A DNA stretch of 64,000 nucleotides from Acidobacteriota bacterium (GTDB lineage Bacteria > Acidobacteriota > Vicinamibacteria > Vicinamibacterales > 2-12-FULL-66-21). The stretch covers positions 1 to 64,000 of the forward strand of contig JACPDI010000010.1 in NCBI GenBank assembly GCA_016184105.1. The letters run 5' to 3'. Each line of letters starts with the position of its first letter. Position 1 is the first letter of the stretch. Both the position numbers and the translations under genes were made by a program. This document shows positions 1,332-9,002 of this stretch, piece after piece. Under the pieces are notes generated by a model, which did no database searches, had not been told where the DNA came from, and saw only the letters and a program-made list of their open reading frames with translations.

Positions 1332-1798
1332 GGAGCCTTCTCATTTCGATTATAGCCGTACCGGCTGCGCCCGATCCATTCTGGCGCGACTCTGCACGGA
1401 GCGAGAGGGCCTGAGACACAATGAGACATTTTGTGCGTGAACACAGCAGAACGGAGCGAAACGCACCGAAGCGATAACGCCGAAAACTCGAACAAACCAG
1501 AGCGAACCGGAACGGGCCGCAACCCATTCACGGCTCTCTGGACCACGTTATCGGGGTTCGACTCCCTGCCTCCCAGCCAGCTCAACAGTAAAGCACACCA
1601 CTCCCTGCTTCGTATGAACGCAGGTTTATGGCGAAACCTGACGCGAACCGTCCGCTAGGAAATCTGTCGTCCTAGAGCCAAGTCTCAAGGCCACACGTTT
1701 CGGAGGTGAACGGCCTATGTAAAGTGCTGGCCTATATAGACTTGTAATTACTTCACATTCCACTTCACATTGAGAGCGCTTCGGCTTATCGTATCCGT
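1332..1798. other. Intergenic scar with integrase-tail-like sequence and a tRNA 3'-end-like segment
   Basis: No supportable gene. At 1411-1445 there is a GAGACA-type repeat (TGAGACACAATGAGACA) followed by a run rich in GAACGGAGCGAAAC-like words; the same arrangement recurs at 21365-21400. At 1556-1579 lies a sequence like the T-arm and 3' end of a tRNA including the terminal CCA. No matching 5' acceptor (TGGGAGG expected) is found within 90 bp upstream, so this is a fragment. The last 70 bp before the next gene are AT-rich and probably hold its promoter. Confidence 0.6.
1556..1579 (+). repeat. tRNA 3'-end-like segment, candidate attachment-site copy 1
   Basis: Contains a T-stem/loop (GGGG-TTCGACT-CCCTG) followed by CCTCCCA, a discriminator G and CCA. 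It matches 25603-25626 at 22 of 24 positions. Integrative elements using tyrosine recombinases commonly recombine within tRNA 3' ends and leave such copies at both edges. Without a 5' tRNA half here, this is an orphan attachment-like sequence, not a tRNA gene. Confidence 0.5.
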
Positions 1799-2593
1799 AT
1801 GAGCGCCACAGACAATCCGCTCGAAGCTCCGACGCCAGAGGAGGTGCCGCTCAAGAACGCACCCCTGGTGCGCGTCATCGCGCAGCTCCGGTTTCCCGAG
1901 ATTCTGTCCGTCGAGCAGCGAGAGTTCGTGGCCCCCTTTCAGGAGGCAACGCGAAGTAAATATCCCGTGCTTCGACAGGAGCAGACGCAAGGGTTTCTGC
2001 TGGGACCAGGCGGTGTGGCCCAAGCGAAACCAAAGATCGCCTGGCGTTTCAGCGATACGACTGGCGATTGGCGTGTCTCGCTGGCATCTGAATTCTTGGC
2101 GCTTGAGACCACGCGGTACGTCAGCAGGTCGGACTTCTTCGGCAGACTCAGGTTTCTCGCCGAAGCGGTCATTGAGCACATCGGACCGAGTCAGCTCGAT
2201 CGCCTTGGGGTTCGCTACATCGATCGGATTGCTGGCCCGACAGTCGACGACATCACGGCGCTTGTGCGGCCTGAGGTCCGTGGCATCGTGGGAACGAGCA
2301 TCGCGACCCAGGCAGTGCACGCGATTTCAGAATCACTGTTCAACGTGACCGGCGCACAGATGCTTGCTCGGTGGGGGTGTCTTCCCCCGGGCGCGACCGT
2401 CGATCCATCGGCGATCGAACCCGCGAAGGAGAAGAGCTGGATTCTCGATCTTGATATGTTCAGCGCGGCTCCGATGCCGTTTGAAGTTGACCAAGTCATT
2501 TCAGAAGCGCAGCGCTACGCCGAGCGGATCTACACGGTCTTTCGGTGGGCTGTCACGAATGAGTTCCTGGTTCGATTCGGAGGCGAGCCATGA
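1799..2593 (+). CDS. TIGR04255 family protein
   Basis: A 264-residue protein that fits TIGR04255, a sporadically distributed family of unknown function. The conserved N-terminal strand is present as PLVRVIAQLRFPEI (about residues 23-36), and a second typical block, QLDRLGVRYIDRI, follows near 135-147. There is no signal peptide or membrane segment, so it is cytoplasmic. The start is the first ATG after the AT-rich region; no clear Shine-Dalgarno is seen, so translation may be leaderless or weakly initiated. Its stop overlaps the ATG of the next gene, which makes it the first gene of a three-gene unit. Confidence 0.75.
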   Translation: MSATDNPLEAPTPEEVPLKNAPLVRVIAQLRFPEILSVEQREFVAPFQEATRSKYPVLRQEQTQGFLLGPGGVAQAKPKIAWRFSDTTGDWRVSLASEFLALETTRYVSRSDFFGRLRFLAEAVIEHIGPSQLDRLGVRYIDRIAGPTVDDITALVRPEVRGIVGTSIATQAVHAISESLFNVTGAQMLARWGCLPPGATVDPSAIEPAKEKSWILDLDMFSAAPMPFEVDQVISEAQRYAERIYTVFRWAVTNEFLVRFGGEP

Positions 2594-3258
2594 ATAGCAC
2601 GCCAGTCCGCTCACCGTTTGATACCACGTCGGCCGGCGGCGCAATGCTCCTCATGCGGCAGGTCCGTGAGCCGATCCTAGCCAGCGTCATCTTCGTTGGT
2701 CTTGGAACCTCCGCCGCGGTTGCGCCTCCTCCGGAAGTGCTTTCGCATCTACAGAGGCCTGTTGACCAGACGAACGCAGGGACATCCCTGCCGGCGGCCC
2801 TGTCAGCGAGCGGTGCGATCGCCGAGTTGAGGCGGCTCAGTGGCCTGACGTGGGATCAGCTCGCTCGGTTGTTCAACGTGAGTCGTCGGTCCCTCCACTT
2901 CTGGGCCAGCGGGAAGCCCATGGCGCCCAGCAACGAGGAGCATCTCCAGCGGCTGCTCGCTGTAGTCCGAAAGATTGATAGAGGGACGGCCACGGCCAAC
3001 CGCGCCCTATTGCTGGCTGCTCGGGAAGACGGAAACTTCCCGTTTGACATGTTGGCCATCGGCGCTTACGACCGAGTTTTAGCGCTCTTGGCAACCGGTG
3101 AAGTGCGACGCGTCACGCCGTCAGGCCTCAGTGAAGCAGAGCGGGCAGCGCGAACTCCGCCTCGACCCGAAGACCTTGTGGGTGCGCTCCAGGATCGCAT
3201 TCACCCTTCGAGCGGGCGCCTGCGTGCGGCAAGGTCAGTCAATCGGCATCGGAGATAG
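2590..3258 (+). CDS. HTH-domain protein of the TIGR04255 cassette
   Basis: A 222-residue protein whose ATG overlaps the upstream stop (ATGA), implying translational coupling. A Cro/XRE-like helix-turn-helix is visible at about 78-105 (LSGLTWDQLARLFNVSRR, then LHFWASG), with recognition helix VSRRSLHFWA. The stretch FPFDMLAIGAYDRVLALL (about 150-167) resembles the small helical segment found after the HTH in some Xre-type antitoxins. The N-terminal 70 residues are low-complexity with a short hydrophobic run (ILASVIFVGLG), and the C-terminal 40 are Arg-rich. It may regulate the cassette or recruit it to DNA. I do not recognise a named family beyond HTH. Confidence 0.65.
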   Translation: MNSTPVRSPFDTTSAGGAMLLMRQVREPILASVIFVGLGTSAAVAPPPEVLSHLQRPVDQTNAGTSLPAALSASGAIAELRRLSGLTWDQLARLFNVSRRSLHFWASGKPMAPSNEEHLQRLLAVVRKIDRGTATANRALLLAAREDGNFPFDMLAIGAYDRVLALLATGEVRRVTPSGLSEAERAARTPPRPEDLVGALQDRIHPSSGRLRAARSVNRHRR

Positions 3259-3261
3259 TGA

Positions 3262-4119
3262 GTGGCAACACTCAGTCCAGACTCCGATGAGGCCAAGCGC
3301 ATCGACGCTGCTCTCCAAGATTGGAGGCAGGGCGATTTGGCGCTCGAGGAATCGTGGTTCGTTCATGTAGGTGACCCGGGCGCCCCGCTTACCGATGCGG
3401 CGGCGGAGGCCGCAGATGGGGACCTGCAAGCGCTCACGTCGGAAGTTCGAGGGCTGATCGTCGTCACGCAGACTTGCGATATCGTTCGAGCCTGCGTCGA
3501 CAGACCCTATGTCGAGATCGCTCCGCTCGTGCAGGTCAGTGAGGACGACCTCCAGATGGTGAAACGTGGGCGGCGTCCAGCCTATGCAACCCTGCCGGGC
3601 CTGGAGCCGGATTGCCTCGTAGCCGATCTCGACCGAGTGATGACGGTCGAAAAGTCGATCGTCGCTTCGTGGAAAAGGACGCCGGGCTACCTCGACGATG
3701 CAGCCGGTCGAGGGTTTGCGCAGGCTCTTGCTCGGAAGCGAGTACGGTTCGCGTTTCCTGACGACTTCACGAGCTTGGTCGACAAGCTACAGCGACGGCT
3801 TGTCGAGAAGCACGATAAGGACTCAGTCGAGGGTCGCGGGCTTCGCGCTCTTCGCGATATCCGCGTCCGAGCAGCGCCTTCTTGGGATGCTGCCGAGGTG
3901 GAGATCCTTTTCTGGTTCGTGCGTGAAGAGGAAGAGATCATCTTCGAGGGGAAGAGCTGGCCTGATCTCTTGAACTCGTGGCTCAAGCTCGTTCCAGCCT
4001 CCGGACGTTTCAAGGCTGTCGATGGCCAAGTCGTCGTCTTGGAAGACATGACCGCAAGAGACTACGTCGAGAGCGATCCGCTCGATCTCGACCACCTTTC
4101 GACGAGCGCGAAGGCGTGA
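3262..4119 (+). CDS. Unrecognised protein, third gene of the TIGR04255 cassette
   Basis: A 285-residue soluble protein starting 3 bp after the HTH gene at ATG-like codon GTG (3262). The most distinctive segment is LIVVTQTCDIVR at about residues 66-77, followed by RPYVEIAPLVQV. The Thr-Cys-Asp core after a buried beta strand looks like a conserved, possibly catalytic or metal-binding site. The middle is basic and helical (ALARKRVRFAFP, LVDKLQRRLVEKH), and the end is acidic. No signal peptide, membrane segment or known nuclease motif is seen. Position and spacing say it works with the TIGR04255 and HTH proteins. No function is claimed. Confidence 0.6.
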   Translation: MATLSPDSDEAKRIDAALQDWRQGDLALEESWFVHVGDPGAPLTDAAAEAADGDLQALTSEVRGLIVVTQTCDIVRACVDRPYVEIAPLVQVSEDDLQMVKRGRRPAYATLPGLEPDCLVADLDRVMTVEKSIVASWKRTPGYLDDAAGRGFAQALARKRVRFAFPDDFTSLVDKLQRRLVEKHDKDSVEGRGLRALRDIRVRAAPSWDAAEVEILFWFVREEEEIIFEGKSWPDLLNSWLKLVPASGRFKAVDGQVVVLEDMTARDYVESDPLDLDHLSTSAKA

Positions 4120-4397: not shown

Positions 4398-4866
4398 ATC
4401 ACGGGTGCGGGCCAATGTGGCACCTGATTCGAGTCCGCATCAGCACTCGCGGGATCACTCGATGATCGATTGCCTTCATCGGTCCGCCAGAGAGGGCATT
4501 TCGGGCGGCGATGCCACCTTGGCGGCTGCCAATCGGAGTTGCCATCTGACTGCCGTGCTGCCGCCCGATCACGTCGCCCGCCGCGTAGATGTGTGGGACG
4601 TTTGTTCGCAGGGATGTGTCGACGACGGCTTCGCTGCGTTCGTTCACCTGCACACCAGCCCGGTCCATGGCATGTTGTCCGTGTTGGGGCGCCTTCCCGT
4701 AGCCACGAGCACTCGATCCGTTCGGTATTGTCGCTCGTGTCCCGCGACGACCGCGGTCGTGACGATCTCCGCCCCGTCCTGCCTCCACCGTCTGCGAGTC
4801 CACGAACCGCACGTGGCCTCGCTCTACACGGATGTCGCCGCCGACCAGCCCGACCTCGATGGATCG
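4398..4866 (-). pseudogene. merA: Decayed mercuric reductase (MerA) fragment
   Basis: On the minus strand three reading frames together spell a MerA segment: a strand region with GHVRFVDSQTVEA, then LVATGRRPNTDNM in another frame, then NVPHIYAAGDVIG and SQMATPIGSRQGGIAARNAL in a third (inside 4399-4812). These are the FAD/NADPH-binding landmarks of flavoprotein disulfide reductases, and DHRVIPR is typical of MerA. The N-terminal redox-active Cys pair, the dimerisation domain and the C-terminal Cys pair are missing and several frameshifts are present. It is the last gene in the direction of the mer operon, directly after merP. Confidence 0.8.
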
Positions 4867-4871
4867 ACTCC

Positions 4872-5192
4872 CTACTTCGCGACCTCGGTCTTGTAGCCAG
4901 TCTTTTGGGCGATCGCTTTGGCGATCGCGTCCGGCGATGTCTTGGCGGAATCGTAGGTGACCTCAGCCGTCCCTTTCGCGTAACTGGCCTTCGCGTCTTT
5001 GACGCCGTCGATCTGTTTCGCAGCGATCTCCACCGCCGCCTCACATCCCGAACAGGTCATGCCAGTGACTTTCATCGTGCAGACTTTCGTGGCTTCCGCC
5101 GGCTTGGTCTGCGTTGACTGCGCGCGTACCGCCGTAGCCGTTGCGACGCCGCTGACTGCGATCGCCGCTGCAAGTGCCAGAACCTTTCGCAT
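4872..5192 (-). CDS. merP: Periplasmic mercury-binding protein MerP-like
   Basis: A 106-residue protein starting at the ATG preceded by GAAGGAG at optimal distance. A signal peptide (RKVLALAAAIAVSGVATATA, cleavage near AVRAQ) exports it to the periplasm. The mature part is one HMA domain with the metal site GMTCSGCEAAVE (CxxC). MerP binds Hg(II) in the periplasm and hands it to MerT. It is 10 bp downstream of merT on the same strand. An alternative longer start 27 bp upstream is less likely because it lacks a ribosome site. Confidence 0.88.
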   Translation of the reverse strand: MRKVLALAAAIAVSGVATATAVRAQSTQTKPAEATKVCTMKVTGMTCSGCEAAVEIAAKQIDGVKDAKASYAKGTAEVTYDSAKTSPDAIAKAIAQKTGYKTEVAK

Positions 5193-5202
5193 ATGTGCTC
5201 CT

Positions 5203-5517
5203 TCAGAAGAGATATTCAACGTAGTACGGAAACGTGACCAGTGCTGTGGTGAGTGCCGCCGCTAGCCACACCGCGACGCGCGTCCGTCTCCGCGACGCGG
5301 GGGAGCACGTGCCGCAATCGGTCGTCGGGCGATAGGCGACGAAAAACGCGCCGCCCAGCAACAGCGCCGTCGCCGTGAGCAAGAATGGACGGTACAGCTC
5401 CAGCGCGGACAAGGACGCGCCGAACGTGCCGGCGCCGAGGAGTACGAACGCGACGGGGCCGATACAACAGGCCGATGCCACCCCGGCTGCCAGCACGGAC
5501 GCGAGGGCCGTCTTCAC
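5203..5517 (-). CDS. merT: Mercuric transport protein MerT-like
   Basis: An inner-membrane protein of about 104 residues with three hydrophobic segments. The first carries the vicinal Cys pair ASACCIGPVAFVLLG characteristic of MerT, and a second pair, DCGTC, lies in the cytoplasmic loop. It receives Hg(II) from MerP and passes it inward for reduction. I chose the GTG at 5517 because it overlaps the merR stop (GTGA) and gives the usual MerT N-terminus; the open frame extends to 5586 with an implausible Arg-rich leader. With merA destroyed, uptake would not be followed by reduction from this operon. Confidence 0.85.
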   Translation of the reverse strand: MKTALASVLAAGVASACCIGPVAFVLLGAGTFGASLSALELYRPFLLTATALLLGGAFFVAYRPTTDCGTCSPASRRRTRVAVWLAAALTTALVTFPYYVEYLF

Positions 5518-5933
5518 TGGCTTAACCCACCCAATTCGGCCATCACCGGGCAGACGGGTCTCTCCTGCTCGAGGGCGTGCTCGCAATCCTGGAGGTGGGT
5601 GCGGAGCGTCCGTCGAAACGCCTGCATCTCCTTGAGCCGGGCGTCCACGCCAGCAAGCCGGCTCTTCAGGAGATCACGGACCCGCCGGCATCGCTGATAC
5701 CCGCCACGTCCTTCGTTGGAAACGAGCTCTCTCACGTCCTTCAAGGTCAGCCCCATTGCCTGGGCCTGTTGAATGAACCGCACCCGTGGCAGCACGTCGT
5801 CCCCGTACGCTCGTAGCCCACCAGCCGTCCGCGGCGCGCGGGGCAACACGCCGAGCCGCTCGTAGTAACGCATGGCATCAGGCGTGATGCCCGCTTTCTC
5901 TGCCACTTCACTGATCCGATATTTGGTAGCCAT
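5514..5933 (-). CDS. merR: MerR family metal-responsive regulator
   Basis: A 139-residue MerR-family activator/repressor. The N-terminal winged helix (YRISEVAEKAGITPDAMRYY) is followed by the long dimerisation helix. Three cysteines lie where MerR binds Hg(II): QRCRRV, LQDCEHAL and ERPVCPVM. Start chosen at ATG 5933 (MATKYRIS); a 9-residue upstream extension is unlikely. The stop overlaps merT. It lies 4 bp after the end of the broken metallochaperone gene and should act on the 20-bp-spacer promoter at 6427-6458. Confidence 0.85.
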   Translation of the reverse strand: MATKYRISEVAEKAGITPDAMRYYERLGVLPRAPRTAGGLRAYGDDVLPRVRFIQQAQAMGLTLKDVRELVSNEGRGGYQRCRRVRDLLKSRLAGVDARLKEMQAFRRTLRTHLQDCEHALEQERPVCPVMAELGGLSQ

Positions 5934-5937
5934 GGGC

Positions 5938-6390
5938 TTACTTCTGAAGGACCGAGGCACACTCAGCCTCGATCCGTGCGGCGGCCTTCATCACATCGCC
6001 CAAGCAGCACGCGCCGCGCGGGTTCCGCACTTCGCAGGCGCAGCGGCCGGCCGCGATATGGTCCCGCACTCACAGCGAAGCGTCACACCGACCCGTCTGG
6101 GCGAACTCAAGTGCCATAGACGTCTCATTCTCATCGAAGCAATAACAGATCATGCGGGCACCGGCGGGCTGCTTCTGCCAGACGGGCACGCGGAGGTCCG
6201 CCGTGTTGAAGACGTGACCGTTGTCGTCGAAGTACACCACCGCGCACGCGGGGTCGGCACAGAATCGATAAGGACCCTCCCGAACGCCCCTGAGTGCGGA
6301 CTCGCAGAGCAAGGCCTTGACGGTGAGCAAATCGACGGCAAGGCCTTTCGTGCCGCTCTGAGGACATCGCGGCGCTACCGCTGCAAGCAC
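5938..6390 (-). pseudogene. CopZ-like iron-sulfur metallochaperone gene interrupted by an in-frame UGA
   Basis: The frame encodes a zinc/Cys N-terminal domain (CPQSGTKGLAVDLLTVKALL, FCADPACAVVYF) and then the beginning of a BFD-like [2Fe-2S] part (MICYCF). At 6070-6072 a TGA stops translation, but the same frame continues with [16 protein letters not shown] and GACCLGDV to the TAA at 5938. These are the remaining cluster ligands of the putative iron-sulfur metallochaperone family. A single change of an Arg codon (CGA to TGA) would explain it. The likely start is GTG 6390, downstream of the inferred transcription start; the frame is open up to 6447. First gene of the merR-merT-merP operon. Confidence 0.75.
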
Positions 6391-6426
6391 GGGGATGGGA
6401 GATCTGCAGCAGGAGCTTATTGCAGA

Positions 6427-6458
6427 AGTATCCACCCTGGAGCGCACTCCAGAGTCAA
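6427..6458 (-). promoter_or_regulatory. MerR-type promoter for the minus-strand mer operon
   Basis: On the minus strand a -35 TTGACT (6458-6453) and a -10 GATACT (6432-6427) are separated by 20 bp, the overlong spacer that MerR regulators untwist. The spacer holds the inverted repeat CTGGAG-TGCG-CTCCAG (6437-6452), similar to ZntR/CadR-type operators and different from the other two MerR operators in this region. Confidence 0.8.
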
Positions 6459-6482
6459 GCCTTATCGGTCCTAAAACACTTC

Positions 6483-6514
6483 TTGACCCTCAAGTCCCCT
6501 TGAAGGGTTGTACT
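6483..6514 (+). promoter_or_regulatory. MerR-type promoter of the P1B-ATPase operon
   Basis: -35 TTGACC (6483-6488) and -10 TGTACT (6509-6514) have a 20-bp spacer containing ACCCTCAAG-TCCC-CTTGAAGGGT. It is nearly identical to the element at 9561-9592, so the second MerR (9600-10082) probably controls both. Confidence 0.82.
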
Positions 6515-6551
6515 TGCGTCTGAACCGACGTCGGGCAATCGAGGTCTCATC

Positions 6552-9002
6552 ATGAATGTCGTCGCAAGTGTGGAAGCCGCTCCACATTTCTGGAGCGAAG
6601 AACCGTCCAAGCTACCCGGCCGCCGCAGAATTCGTGCCCGCATTGGGGGACTCCACTGTTCGCTGTGCACGGGCACGATCGAAAAGGCGCTGAGCAAGCG
6701 ACCTGGCGTCGAGAAAGTCGCCGTGAGCCTGACTCACGAACAGGCGCTCATCGAGTACGACCCGATCGTGACGCGCGCGGAGGATCTACTGCAGACGCTC
6801 ACTGACATCGGCTACACGCTCTCCGATCCGCGCAAGCTGCGTCCCTATGAGGAAGAAGAGCGCGCATTGGTGCGTGAGCGTGGACGCTTCCTGACCGCCC
6901 TGACGATGTCGATTGCGGCGATGGGATTGGTCGGTTACCCAGTCGATAGCCCTTGGTTTCCGCTCTGCGTCTTTTCCATTGCGAGCCTCGTCGCGCTCGC
7001 CTTCGTCGTCTTGCGCAGCTACGGGCTGCAATCGGCGATCGGCGGCTCAGCGCTGTTGTCGGCCTTCGGCGCCGGGATCTATTACCTTCAATTGAAGGAC
7101 GCGTTCGGTCCCGTCGTCCCCTGGATCGCCGGCGTGCTCGCGCTCGTTGTCATCTTCGACGTGGGCGGCCACATCGTGCGCATGGCCTTCATGGCGCTGC
7201 GGCGTGGCATCCTGAACCAGCACGTGCTCGTGGAGTTCGGCGCCTTTGCGGGGTTGGCCGGCGGCGCGATCGGCCTCGCCTTCAACCCGGTCGGGTATCC
7301 GACCGTGGCATTTTTCTCGGTGGCGGTGATGGTGATCAGCTATCACATCTTTTCCGAGTGGCTGTCGCTGATCGTCAAAACGCGCAGTTCGCAAGCGGTC
7401 AAGAAGTTGCTCGACCTTGAGCCTGACGTCGCGTACGTGGTGAAGAACGGCAAGGAAGAGGTCGTGCCGCTCGAACAGGTCCGTGTTGGCGACTTGGTCC
7501 GGATCCGCCCAGGTTCTCGGGTGGCCATTGACGGAGTGGTCGAATCTGGGGACTCGGACGTGGACGAATCGCTAGTCACCGGCGAACCGGCGCTCGTCCA
7601 GAAGCGTCCTGGCGATCGGACGTTGAGTGGTTCGTTAAACGGGCATGGCACGTTGCTCGTGCGTGCGACCGTCGTGGGTGAGGAGAGTTTTCTGAGGCAG
7701 GTCATCCGCAGCGTGGAGGACGCCCGGGCGCTCAAACCCGGTCTACTTCATCTGGTCGATCGCGTCCTGCAGGTCTACACGCCGTTCGTGCTGGTCATGG
7801 CGGCCGGGTCGACGCTCTTCTGGCTGCTCGGTCCACTGGTAATCGGAGGGTCTCCCGACCTCCAGCGGGCCATGTTTGCGGGGTTGAGCGTTCTGGTGAT
7901 GGGCTATCCCTGCGCGGTGGGAATCTCGGCGCCGCTCTCGATTGTCCGCGGGGCCGGCGAAGCTGCCGAACGAGGCGTGCTCATGCGCACGGGCGAGGCC
8001 TTTCAAGCGCTGCGTCGTGTGCAGCGGGTCGTGTTCGACAAGACAGGGACGTTGACGGAGGGCAAGCCTGCGTTGCGCCAGATCGTCGCCGTCTCGGGCA
8101 CCGAAGAGGAGGTGCTCACCCTCGCTGCGGCCGTCGAAGCGTCATCCGAGCACCCGCTGGCGCGCGCGATCGTCGAAGAGGCGTTTCGACGTGGTCTGCC
8201 GCTGTCGGAGGTCGAGGGATTCGAGGCGGTCACGGGTCGGGGCGTCCGGGCCCGTCTCAATGGCAATCGGCTCACGGTCGGCAGCCCGGCGTTTCTCGCG
8301 GCAGACGGGGTGGACCTCCCCCAAGACACACGGATCAACGAGCTCGAAGCAGGCGGGCTCACCGTGATCGGCGTCGCGCGGGACGGCGTGCTGCGTGGTC
8401 TCGTGGCACTCGGGGACGCGGTGAGGCCTGACGCCGTCGAGACCGTCCGCCGTCTGCACGCGCTGGGTATCCGCACCGCTCTCATCACGGGTGACAATGA
8501 GCAGGCGGCCCGGCATTTCGCTGGTGCCGCTGGCATTGAAGAGGTCCATGCTCGCGTACTGCCCGCCGAAAAGGCCGTGTTGATCCGGAAACTGCAAGAG
8601 CGTGAGCGAGTCGCCATGGTCGGCGACGGCATCAACGACGCGCCGGCGCTGATGCAGGCAGACGTCGGAATCGCGTTTGGCAGTGGCGCGGATATCGCGA
8701 TCGAGTCCGCGGACGTCATCATCCTCAGTCAACGACTCGGGGCGGTGCTCGACGCGTACGGCGTGAGCCGAGAGAGTTATCGAAAGATCGTGCAGAACGT
8801 GTCGCTGGCGTTCCTCTTCAACGGCATCGGCATCCCCGCCGCGGCCACGGGGCTGGTGTACCCGGTGTGGGGCATGGTCGCGATGGCCGCCAGCGTCACG
8901 ACGATCTTCATCAATTCGCTGTGGGGGCGCGGCACGTATTTCTTCGAGGCCATTAGAACGGTTGGCCAGCCGCCGCCGGCCGCCGCTACTGGAAACCCAT
9001 AG
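6552..9002 (+). CDS. Heavy-metal translocating P1B-type ATPase with an unusual YPC transmembrane motif
   Basis: An 816-residue inner-membrane metal efflux ATPase. An N-terminal HMA domain binds metal at GLHCSLC (Cys36, Cys39). The actuator loop carries TGEP at 343-346 (usually TGES), the phosphorylation site is DKTGTLTEG (Asp496), followed by the SEHPLA motif and GDGINDAPAL near 691. The membrane metal motif, normally CPC, CPH, SPC or TPC, reads Tyr452-Pro-Cys454 here. One membrane thiol is therefore lost and metal specificity cannot be assigned with confidence; Cu(I) or Hg/Zn-type ions are possible. It opens an operon with two HMA proteins 26 bp downstream and is under a MerR promoter. Confidence 0.9.
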   Translation: MNVVASVEAAPHFWSEEPSKLPGRRRIRARIGGLHCSLCTGTIEKALSKRPGVEKVAVSLTHEQALIEYDPIVTRAEDLLQTLTDIGYTLSDPRKLRPYEEEERALVRERGRFLTALTMSIAAMGLVGYPVDSPWFPLCVFSIASLVALAFVVLRSYGLQSAIGGSALLSAFGAGIYYLQLKDAFGPVVPWIAGVLALVVIFDVGGHIVRMAFMALRRGILNQHVLVEFGAFAGLAGGAIGLAFNPVGYPTVAFFSVAVMVISYHIFSEWLSLIVKTRSSQAVKKLLDLEPDVAYVVKNGKEEVVPLEQVRVGDLVRIRPGSRVAIDGVVESGDSDVDESLVTGEPALVQKRPGDRTLSGSLNGHGTLLVRATVVGEESFLRQVIRSVEDARALKPGLLHLVDRVLQVYTPFVLVMAAGSTLFWLLGPLVIGGSPDLQRAMFAGLSVLVMGYPCAVGISAPLSIVRGAGEAAERGVLMRTGEAFQALRRVQRVVFDKTGTLTEGKPALRQIVAVSGTEEEVLTLAAAVEASSEHPLARAIVEEAFRRGLPLSEVEGFEAVTGRGVRARLNGNRLTVGSPAFLAADGVDLPQDTRINELEAGGLTVIGVARDGVLRGLVALGDAVRPDAVETVRRLHALGIRTALITGDNEQAARHFAGAAGIEEVHARVLPAEKAVLIRKLQERERVAMVGDGINDAPALMQADVGIAFGSGADIAIESADVIILSQRLGAVLDAYGVSRESYRKIVQNVSLAFLFNGIGIPAAATGLVYPVWGMVAMAASVTTIFINSLWGRGTYFFEAIRTVGQPPPAAATGNP

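Follow-up and report, generated by a model that had tools for sequence, protein, structure and literature searches.

A TIGR04255-HTH-TCD gene cassette of plasmids, predicted viral contigs and chromosomes resembles a three-part toxin–antitoxin module

Introduction

Among the described systems that come closest to the locus presented here are the TAC systems (HigBA-SecB(TA), MqsRAC and CmdTAC; PMC5105189, PMC9519451, PMC11618068), which consist of three genes. In these toxin–antitoxin–chaperone systems, a SecB-like chaperone protects an antitoxin that bears an added, destabilising extension (PMC5105189), and in CmdTAC the chaperone can be diverted by a phage capsid protein (PMC11618068). The extension, ChAD, is located at the C-terminus of the antitoxin, and its N-terminal grafting worked on reporter proteins (PMC5105189). 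A second point of comparison is provided by Panacea and other hyperpromiscuous antitoxin domains, where one conserved protein is found with many toxin families (PMC8832971). Lastly, the type II systems include the toxins MazF/PemK (PF02452) and CcdB, and in MazF the residues Arg25 and Thr48 are both required for RNA cleavage (PMC7354611).

Here, we describe a cassette of three genes, A (a TIGR04255 protein), B (an HTH protein) and C (a protein with a TCD motif), that shares features with each of these. Like the TAC systems, it has three genes, belongs to operons that combine a constant third component with varying toxin-type families, carries an extra, variable extension on its putative antitoxin, and occurs in mobile and prophage settings. 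It differs in that gene A stands first, the extension of B is N-terminal rather than C-terminal, and A has no SecB-like match among those found here; it is for this last reason that we place the cassette outside the TAC systems. The likeness of A to the Panacea domains is one of pattern; there, the conserved part is the antitoxin domain itself. C resembles MazF/PemK and CcdB in the predicted fold of its residues 17-164 and in a collinear profile, yet it goes undetected by the Pfam PemK model, lacks the catalytic Arg and Thr of MazF, has an invariant Cys-Asp and Arg of its own, and extends about 120 residues further at its C-terminus. In addition, where MazF operons have a MazE-type antitoxin, this cassette has the HTH and TIGR04255 genes.

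The cassette and its surroundings

The cassette lies in a 64,000-nucleotide stretch of Acidobacteriota DNA, which we refer to as the window, and consists of the following features:

1750-1771, plus strand: tandem direct repeat, two copies of ACTTCACATT with period 12; likely operator of B, a putative function
1799-2593, plus strand: gene A, TIGR04255 protein of 264 aa
2590-3258, plus strand: gene B, HTH protein of 222 aa, overlapping A by 4 bp (ATGA)
about 2590-2817, plus strand: N-terminal extension of B, hydrophobic around residues 29-47; the extension is also seen in B homologues
about 2818-2931, plus strand: HTH of B (HTH_3 match)
3262-4119, plus strand: gene C, TCD-motif protein of 285 aa with a GTG start, 3 bp past the stop of B
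3310-3753, plus strand: predicted MazF/Kid/CcdB-like domain of C, residues 17-164, with W21-x-Q23-G24-D25, T69-Q-T-C72-D73 and R162
3754-4116, plus strand: C-terminal part of C, residues 165-285, without an assigned fold; the model shows structure up to about residue 270

The first-pass annotation of the window had described three same-strand genes with a 4-bp overlap and a 3-bp gap, and the open reading frames bear this out, with A, B and C all on the plus strand; judging from this spacing, the three would be translationally coupled. Both A and C are present in a single copy in the source genome. The flanks are likewise as the annotation had them, with a toxin–antitoxin pair on one side and metal genes on the other. 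The former is a DUF3368 (PIN-like)/UPF0175 pair on the minus strand (561-1331), directly upstream of the cassette, which is probably a VapBC-type pair. On the other side, the open reading frames read as a possible remnant of a mercuric-reductase-type gene (4399-4812), followed by metal-resistance genes (4872-9002) for a protein with a heavy-metal-associated domain, a MerT-like protein, a MerR-type regulator and a large P-type ATPase.

Conservation and distribution

Genome contigs, plasmids, viral contigs and whole genomes were all searched for relatives of C; for the viral contigs, this was done with a closer alignment of C instead of the broad one. For the 38 loci that encode a long C and have at least two readable upstream genes, A and B were sought with profile HMMs. 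In 34 of these 38 loci the genes follow the order A-B-C on one strand, so the arrangement is not due to chance. The annotation had considered that the homologues might normally be scattered; they instead stand together across five or more phyla, on plasmids, predicted viral contigs and chromosomes.

The plasmid copies come from Cyanobacteria, Deinococcota, Actinomycetota and alpha-, beta- and gammaproteobacteria (Chroococcidiopsis, Gloeocapsa, Gloeocapsopsis, Sinorhizobium, Rhizobium, Mesorhizobium, Sphingomonas, Kocuria, Paenarthrobacter, Klebsiella, Acinetobacter, Pseudomonas, Robbsia, Vibrio and Meiothermus), and the copies on chromosomal contigs from Acidobacteriota (the phylum of the window), Chloroflexota and Pseudomonadota. 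The cassette is also found on viral contigs (L141-L144), and in L144 it is flanked by a tail-hub gene and a CI-like repressor. Searched against phage records, A of the window gave three matches, two of them to Acinetobacter phage contigs, and C of the window gave none; a DNA-level search of the Klebsiella cassette against E. coli was also without a match.

The exceptions to the A-B-C order differ in what they have lost. L014 has C in pieces, and neither A nor B was found; in L054, A is gone and both B and C are shortened; in L004, A is gone together with most of the extension of B, while C is whole; and L062 has a whole B and C without A. The last pair (6262-7781) adjoins, as read by eye, a ZapE/AFG1-like ATPase gene. 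C is broken not only in L014 and L054, but also in L007 and in L037 (8048-9025, genome G024), where a single in-frame TGA splits it and A and B are intact.

Protein C: a predicted MazF/Kid/CcdB fold with its own conserved residues

The annotation had called the third protein unrecognised, and C is indeed without a usable match in Pfam, NCBIfam, PADLOC and PHROGs. Pfam returned nothing up to E 1, and the cut-off of PF02452 (PemK_toxin) was not reached. A known nuclease or hydrolase was set aside, as neither a family match in these libraries nor a PDB sequence match was found. A likeness to MazF/PemK had been noted from the sequence pattern of C ahead of any structural result. Structure prediction, which the annotation had named as a way to place this protein, returned a MazF/Kid/CcdB fold. 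The AlphaFold model, computed from an alignment that left out the rows from plasmid records, has a mean pLDDT of 82. The 14 best Foldseek matches of this model are all MazF (probability up to 1.00, E 1.2e-3), and the 50 best VIA-align rows are all MazF/Kid/CcdB, the best being 5hk0_A (Z 9.7, rmsd 3.0, 106 residues aligned, model residues 17-162). For models without a clear VIA-align match, Z values of 7-8 are typical, and the value for C is higher.

A second line of evidence comes from hhalign, in which a profile built from 31 C proteins was aligned with one built from 31 genome-derived PemK domains. This resulted in a score of 31.0 (P 2e-4) with a probability of only 46%. The alignment is collinear, covers residues 23-156 of the window's C (profile columns 23-145) and nearly the whole PemK profile, and takes in the 'GD' start, the 'vvlS' strand, 'v.vaPl' and 'D....TV.K'. 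As controls, 60 column-shuffled PemK profiles scored at most 17.6, and the reversed profile 13.7; when PemK was aligned with the A family, the score was 14.2. Neither the model nor the profile is proof alone, but together they make a convincing case that residues 17-164 of C adopt the predicted MazF/Kid/CcdB fold. The annotation had also allowed for C being a known housekeeping enzyme; what the searches returned is a predicted toxin fold.

The conserved core of C has W-x-Q-G-D near the start of the protein, followed by T/S-Q-x-C-D behind a hydrophobic strand and by a 'v.iaPL' strand, and continues with 'lvaDld..mTVeK', R162-x-A-x-P and a C-terminal 'SDplDlD.lS'. Several of these residues are (nearly) invariant: Gln23 and Gly24 in 28/28 sequences, Cys72 in 30/30, Asp73 in 27/30 and Arg162 in 31 sequences but one (30/31). 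At the columns of the catalytic Arg25 and Thr48 of MazF, C has Arg in 5/31 sequences and Val, Gly or Ala at the Thr position. Since these residues are not kept, RNase activity is not implied. By its predicted fold C is thus a member of the superfamily, and by its catalytic residues it is not a MazF; both a new active site and a CcdB-like poison are compatible with it.

Protein B and a tandem repeat upstream of the cassette

The HTH_3 domain of B spans residues 77-114 (E 1.1e-5, above the Pfam cut-off). In B homologues this domain is preceded by an N-terminal extension of about 70-120 residues that is poorly conserved in sequence and contains, in about half of them, a hydrophobic stretch rich in Ala, Gly and Ser. 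Hydrophobic residues cluster weakly in the extension, with a Fisher combined P of 0.0014 against 0.99 for a C-terminal control; of 28 single tests, only 5 fall below 0.05. A membrane-anchored regulator was dropped as a candidate, because the stretch is missing in about half of the homologues.

Within the 150 bases upstream of A, nearly all cassette loci have a tandem direct repeat with the core TTCACA, reading TGTGAA, TGTAAA or TGTGTAA in the other orientation (core TGTRAA), with a period of 12 and sometimes 11. In the window, its copies are found at 1750-1759 and 1762-1771. When scored as 8-mers that recur at a fixed lag inside 120 bases with 7 or more matching positions, a repeat at lag 12 was detected in 24/29 cassette loci against 1/28 TIGR04255 operons without the HTH/long-C pair, and lags other than 12 gave 0 to 3 of the 29. 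In a held-out set, 5/9 loci had the repeat at lag 11 or 12 (L141, L143, L144, L152 and L162, the last with the copy TGTTCAAG); a sixth match, in L153, is a different sequence, and the remaining held-out loci show looser copies by eye. Eleven further control operons had nothing at lag 11 or 12 save runs of N. The repeat therefore tracks the HTH version of B and not TIGR04255 as such, which supports B as its reader. With copies about one helical turn apart, it is likely a tandem operator of B, and we propose that B acts as both antitoxin and autorepressor.

Protein A and the operons headed by TIGR04255

A is a full member of TIGR04255 by sequence, matching the NCBIfam profile over positions 2-252 of 252 (146.3 bits with a cut-off of 30, E 1.3e-42). 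Its AlphaFold model (pLDDT 93.8, pTM 0.90) has two beta-alpha-beta-beta(-beta)-alpha repeats. The best full-length PDB matches are guanido kinases with Z 8.0, and weak Foldseek rows include AdoMetDC and the type VII chaperone EspG5; as all of these are at background level, no function is drawn from them. A SecB-like identity was set aside because SecB is absent among the fold matches listed for A, although this is no proof of absence and an unlisted family could still match. Among 5.39 million searched open-access papers, none names TIGR04255, and a survey of HicA (PMC10865869) mentions no TIGR0 family. From the operon company of A, we propose that it is a third component, either chaperone-like or a co-antitoxin, and perhaps, by analogy with the TAC systems, a chaperone.

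This company was read from 56 TIGR04255 genes drawn from 149 Acidobacteriota, 200 Pseudomonadota and 201 Chloroflexota genomes, of which 15, 19 and 15, respectively, carry the family (about 1 in 10-13); each draw includes one genome picked for carrying the cassette. The last gene of each operon was assigned by reading the downstream genes, with Pfam for some. A long C with an HTH gene was found in 11/56 operons, three of them from the genomes around which the draws were made, and a short C without HTH in 6/56. Another 15/56 end in a gene of an uncharacterised family that is marked by 'DNPAHA' or 'FLF...GRAD' motifs. Toxin-type last genes are HEPN-like (5), PIN (2), HicA-like (2), PemK (1) and HNH (1), and the rest consist of one DUF7689 gene and 12 that were unreadable or unassigned. 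The PIN (L040, L047), PemK (L086) and HNH (L052) genes score above the Pfam cut-offs; the HEPN and HicA examples are below them (E 0.017 and 0.038), and these calls rest partly on motif reading. In L047, the PIN gene overlaps the A-type gene directly, with nothing between them. Thus, A is constant and comes first, the last gene is swapped among toxin-type families, and the middle gene co-varies with it, which fits a common helper or sensor alongside cognate antitoxin–toxin pairs. TIGR04255 thus seems to be the component shared across a modular toxin–antitoxin-like family.

Proposed mechanism and alternative explanations

The cassette is very probably a three-part toxin–antitoxin-like module, and we consider it fairly probable that C is its toxin, B its antitoxin and repressor, and A a component that B needs. 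C would be a toxin with a MazF/CcdB fold, its own residue set (Gln23-Gly24, Cys72-Asp73 and Arg162) and an extra C-terminal part. B would be a DNA-binding antitoxin that represses the operon via the tandem TGTRAA repeat before A. A would be a third component dedicated to the module, which B requires to keep C under control; its simplest role would be that of a chaperone for the long N-terminal extension of B. Loss or distraction of A, for instance by plasmid loss or a phage protein, would then free C. The analysis shows the kept synteny, the predicted fold of C, the kept repeat and the recurrence of TIGR04255 in toxin-type operons, and the toxicity of C and its neutralisation, DNA binding by B, the chaperone role of A and the trigger are inferences. 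The exceptional loci also bear on the role of A. In L004, where C is intact, both A and most of the extension of B are absent, as would be expected if the extension makes B depend on A, and we regard this joint absence as suggestive. The losses of A and the N-terminus of B in L004 and L054 may each have come about by one deletion and are thus not independent evidence. L062 does not fit an explanation by loss of the extension alone and shows that A-free B-C pairs can exist.

The main rival to the chaperone reading holds that A itself is the antitoxin, binding and blocking the toxin directly, and that B is only a transcriptional repressor. The PIN gene of L047, which has no second gene between it and TIGR04255, speaks for such a role, as does the retention of A in operons where both B and C vary. 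However, a single family would then need to fit MazF-, PIN-, HEPN- and HNH-type partners, B co-varies with C as a cognate antitoxin would, and L062 and L004 retain B and an intact C without A; we consider a direct antitoxin unlikely. More improbable still is that C is no toxin, its MazF-like barrel being the binding domain of a regulatory or repair protein and A-B-C a regulatory cassette. The loss of the MazF catalytic residues, the strict conservation of Cys72-Asp73 and Arg162 in their stead and the far greater length of C compared with MazF would suit such a protein. Yet bona fide PemK, PIN and HNH genes occupy the same place in sister operons, the context is one of mobile elements, and C is broken in four loci (L014, L037, L054 and L007), as toxin genes often are.

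A further alternative concerns the biological use of the module and is compatible with a toxin–antitoxin mechanism: dedicated abortive infection, where A senses a phage component and C acts as the effector, with no plasmid addiction. This is consistent with the predicted viral contigs (L141-L145), the prophage-like setting of L104, the HsdM-type methyltransferases beside two plasmid copies and last genes that are swappable, as in defence systems. Against it, A, B and C match no family of PADLOC-DB 2.0.0 up to E 1, and among the 68 genes that flank the plasmid copies, only a few belong to defence families (SoFic, type I methyltransferases and a small number of others), a count made without a control set, so that we claim no defence-island enrichment. 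Moreover, the architecture fits an addiction module equally well. We regard a dedicated anti-phage role as rather doubtful. The annotation had read the cassette as a defence or addiction module, and the two halves of this reading fare differently: addiction, or toxin–antitoxin function, is well supported by the predicted structure of C, the synteny, the mobile context and the kept repeat, while anti-phage defence stays a possible use that the database and flanking-gene searches did not back.

Implications

TIGR04255, a curated family so far without a role, now has recurrent genomic company and a testable function, and a predicted toxin fold has been found in a protein that none of the libraries searched recognises. 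This predicts that plasmids and prophages, among them those of Klebsiella, Acinetobacter, Pseudomonas and Vibrio, carry many unlisted toxin–antitoxin or defence modules. Should A prove to be a chaperone, chaperone addiction would have been invented a second time, independently. Tentatively, and as a reading that may well not hold in full, we suggest that TIGR04255 is the common chaperone or sensor, with a fold unrelated to SecB, of a large, modular three-gene class of toxin–antitoxin or abortive-infection systems with at least six exchangeable effector types. The TCD protein would be one of these, a new toxin of the MazF/CcdB fold in which a Cys-containing active site takes the place of that of MazF.

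Further TIGR04255 operons

The commonest other last gene in the TIGR04255 operons belongs to the 'GRADi'/'DNPAHA' family (loci L041, L043, L050, L083, L090-L092, L098, L099, L156, L157, L161, L163, L165 and L168), the scanned members of which are without a Pfam match. It is usually preceded by a gene with a 'WDGYGA' motif, and the two form a candidate new effector-partner pair. A plasmid search with the divergent TIGR04255 protein of one of these loci (L099) gave no match. The short version of C (about 170-230 aa, with LSNTCDMS or MTQ(A/S)CDL) is located behind a small gene without HTH in six loci (L085, L088, L093, L049, L158 and L166), and the short-C operons that were tested are without the tandem repeat. 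Lastly, on a Rhizobium plasmid, a TIGR04255 operon (L103, 2183-6525) adjoins a cluster encoding multiubiquitin, a ThiF adenylyltransferase and DUF6527.
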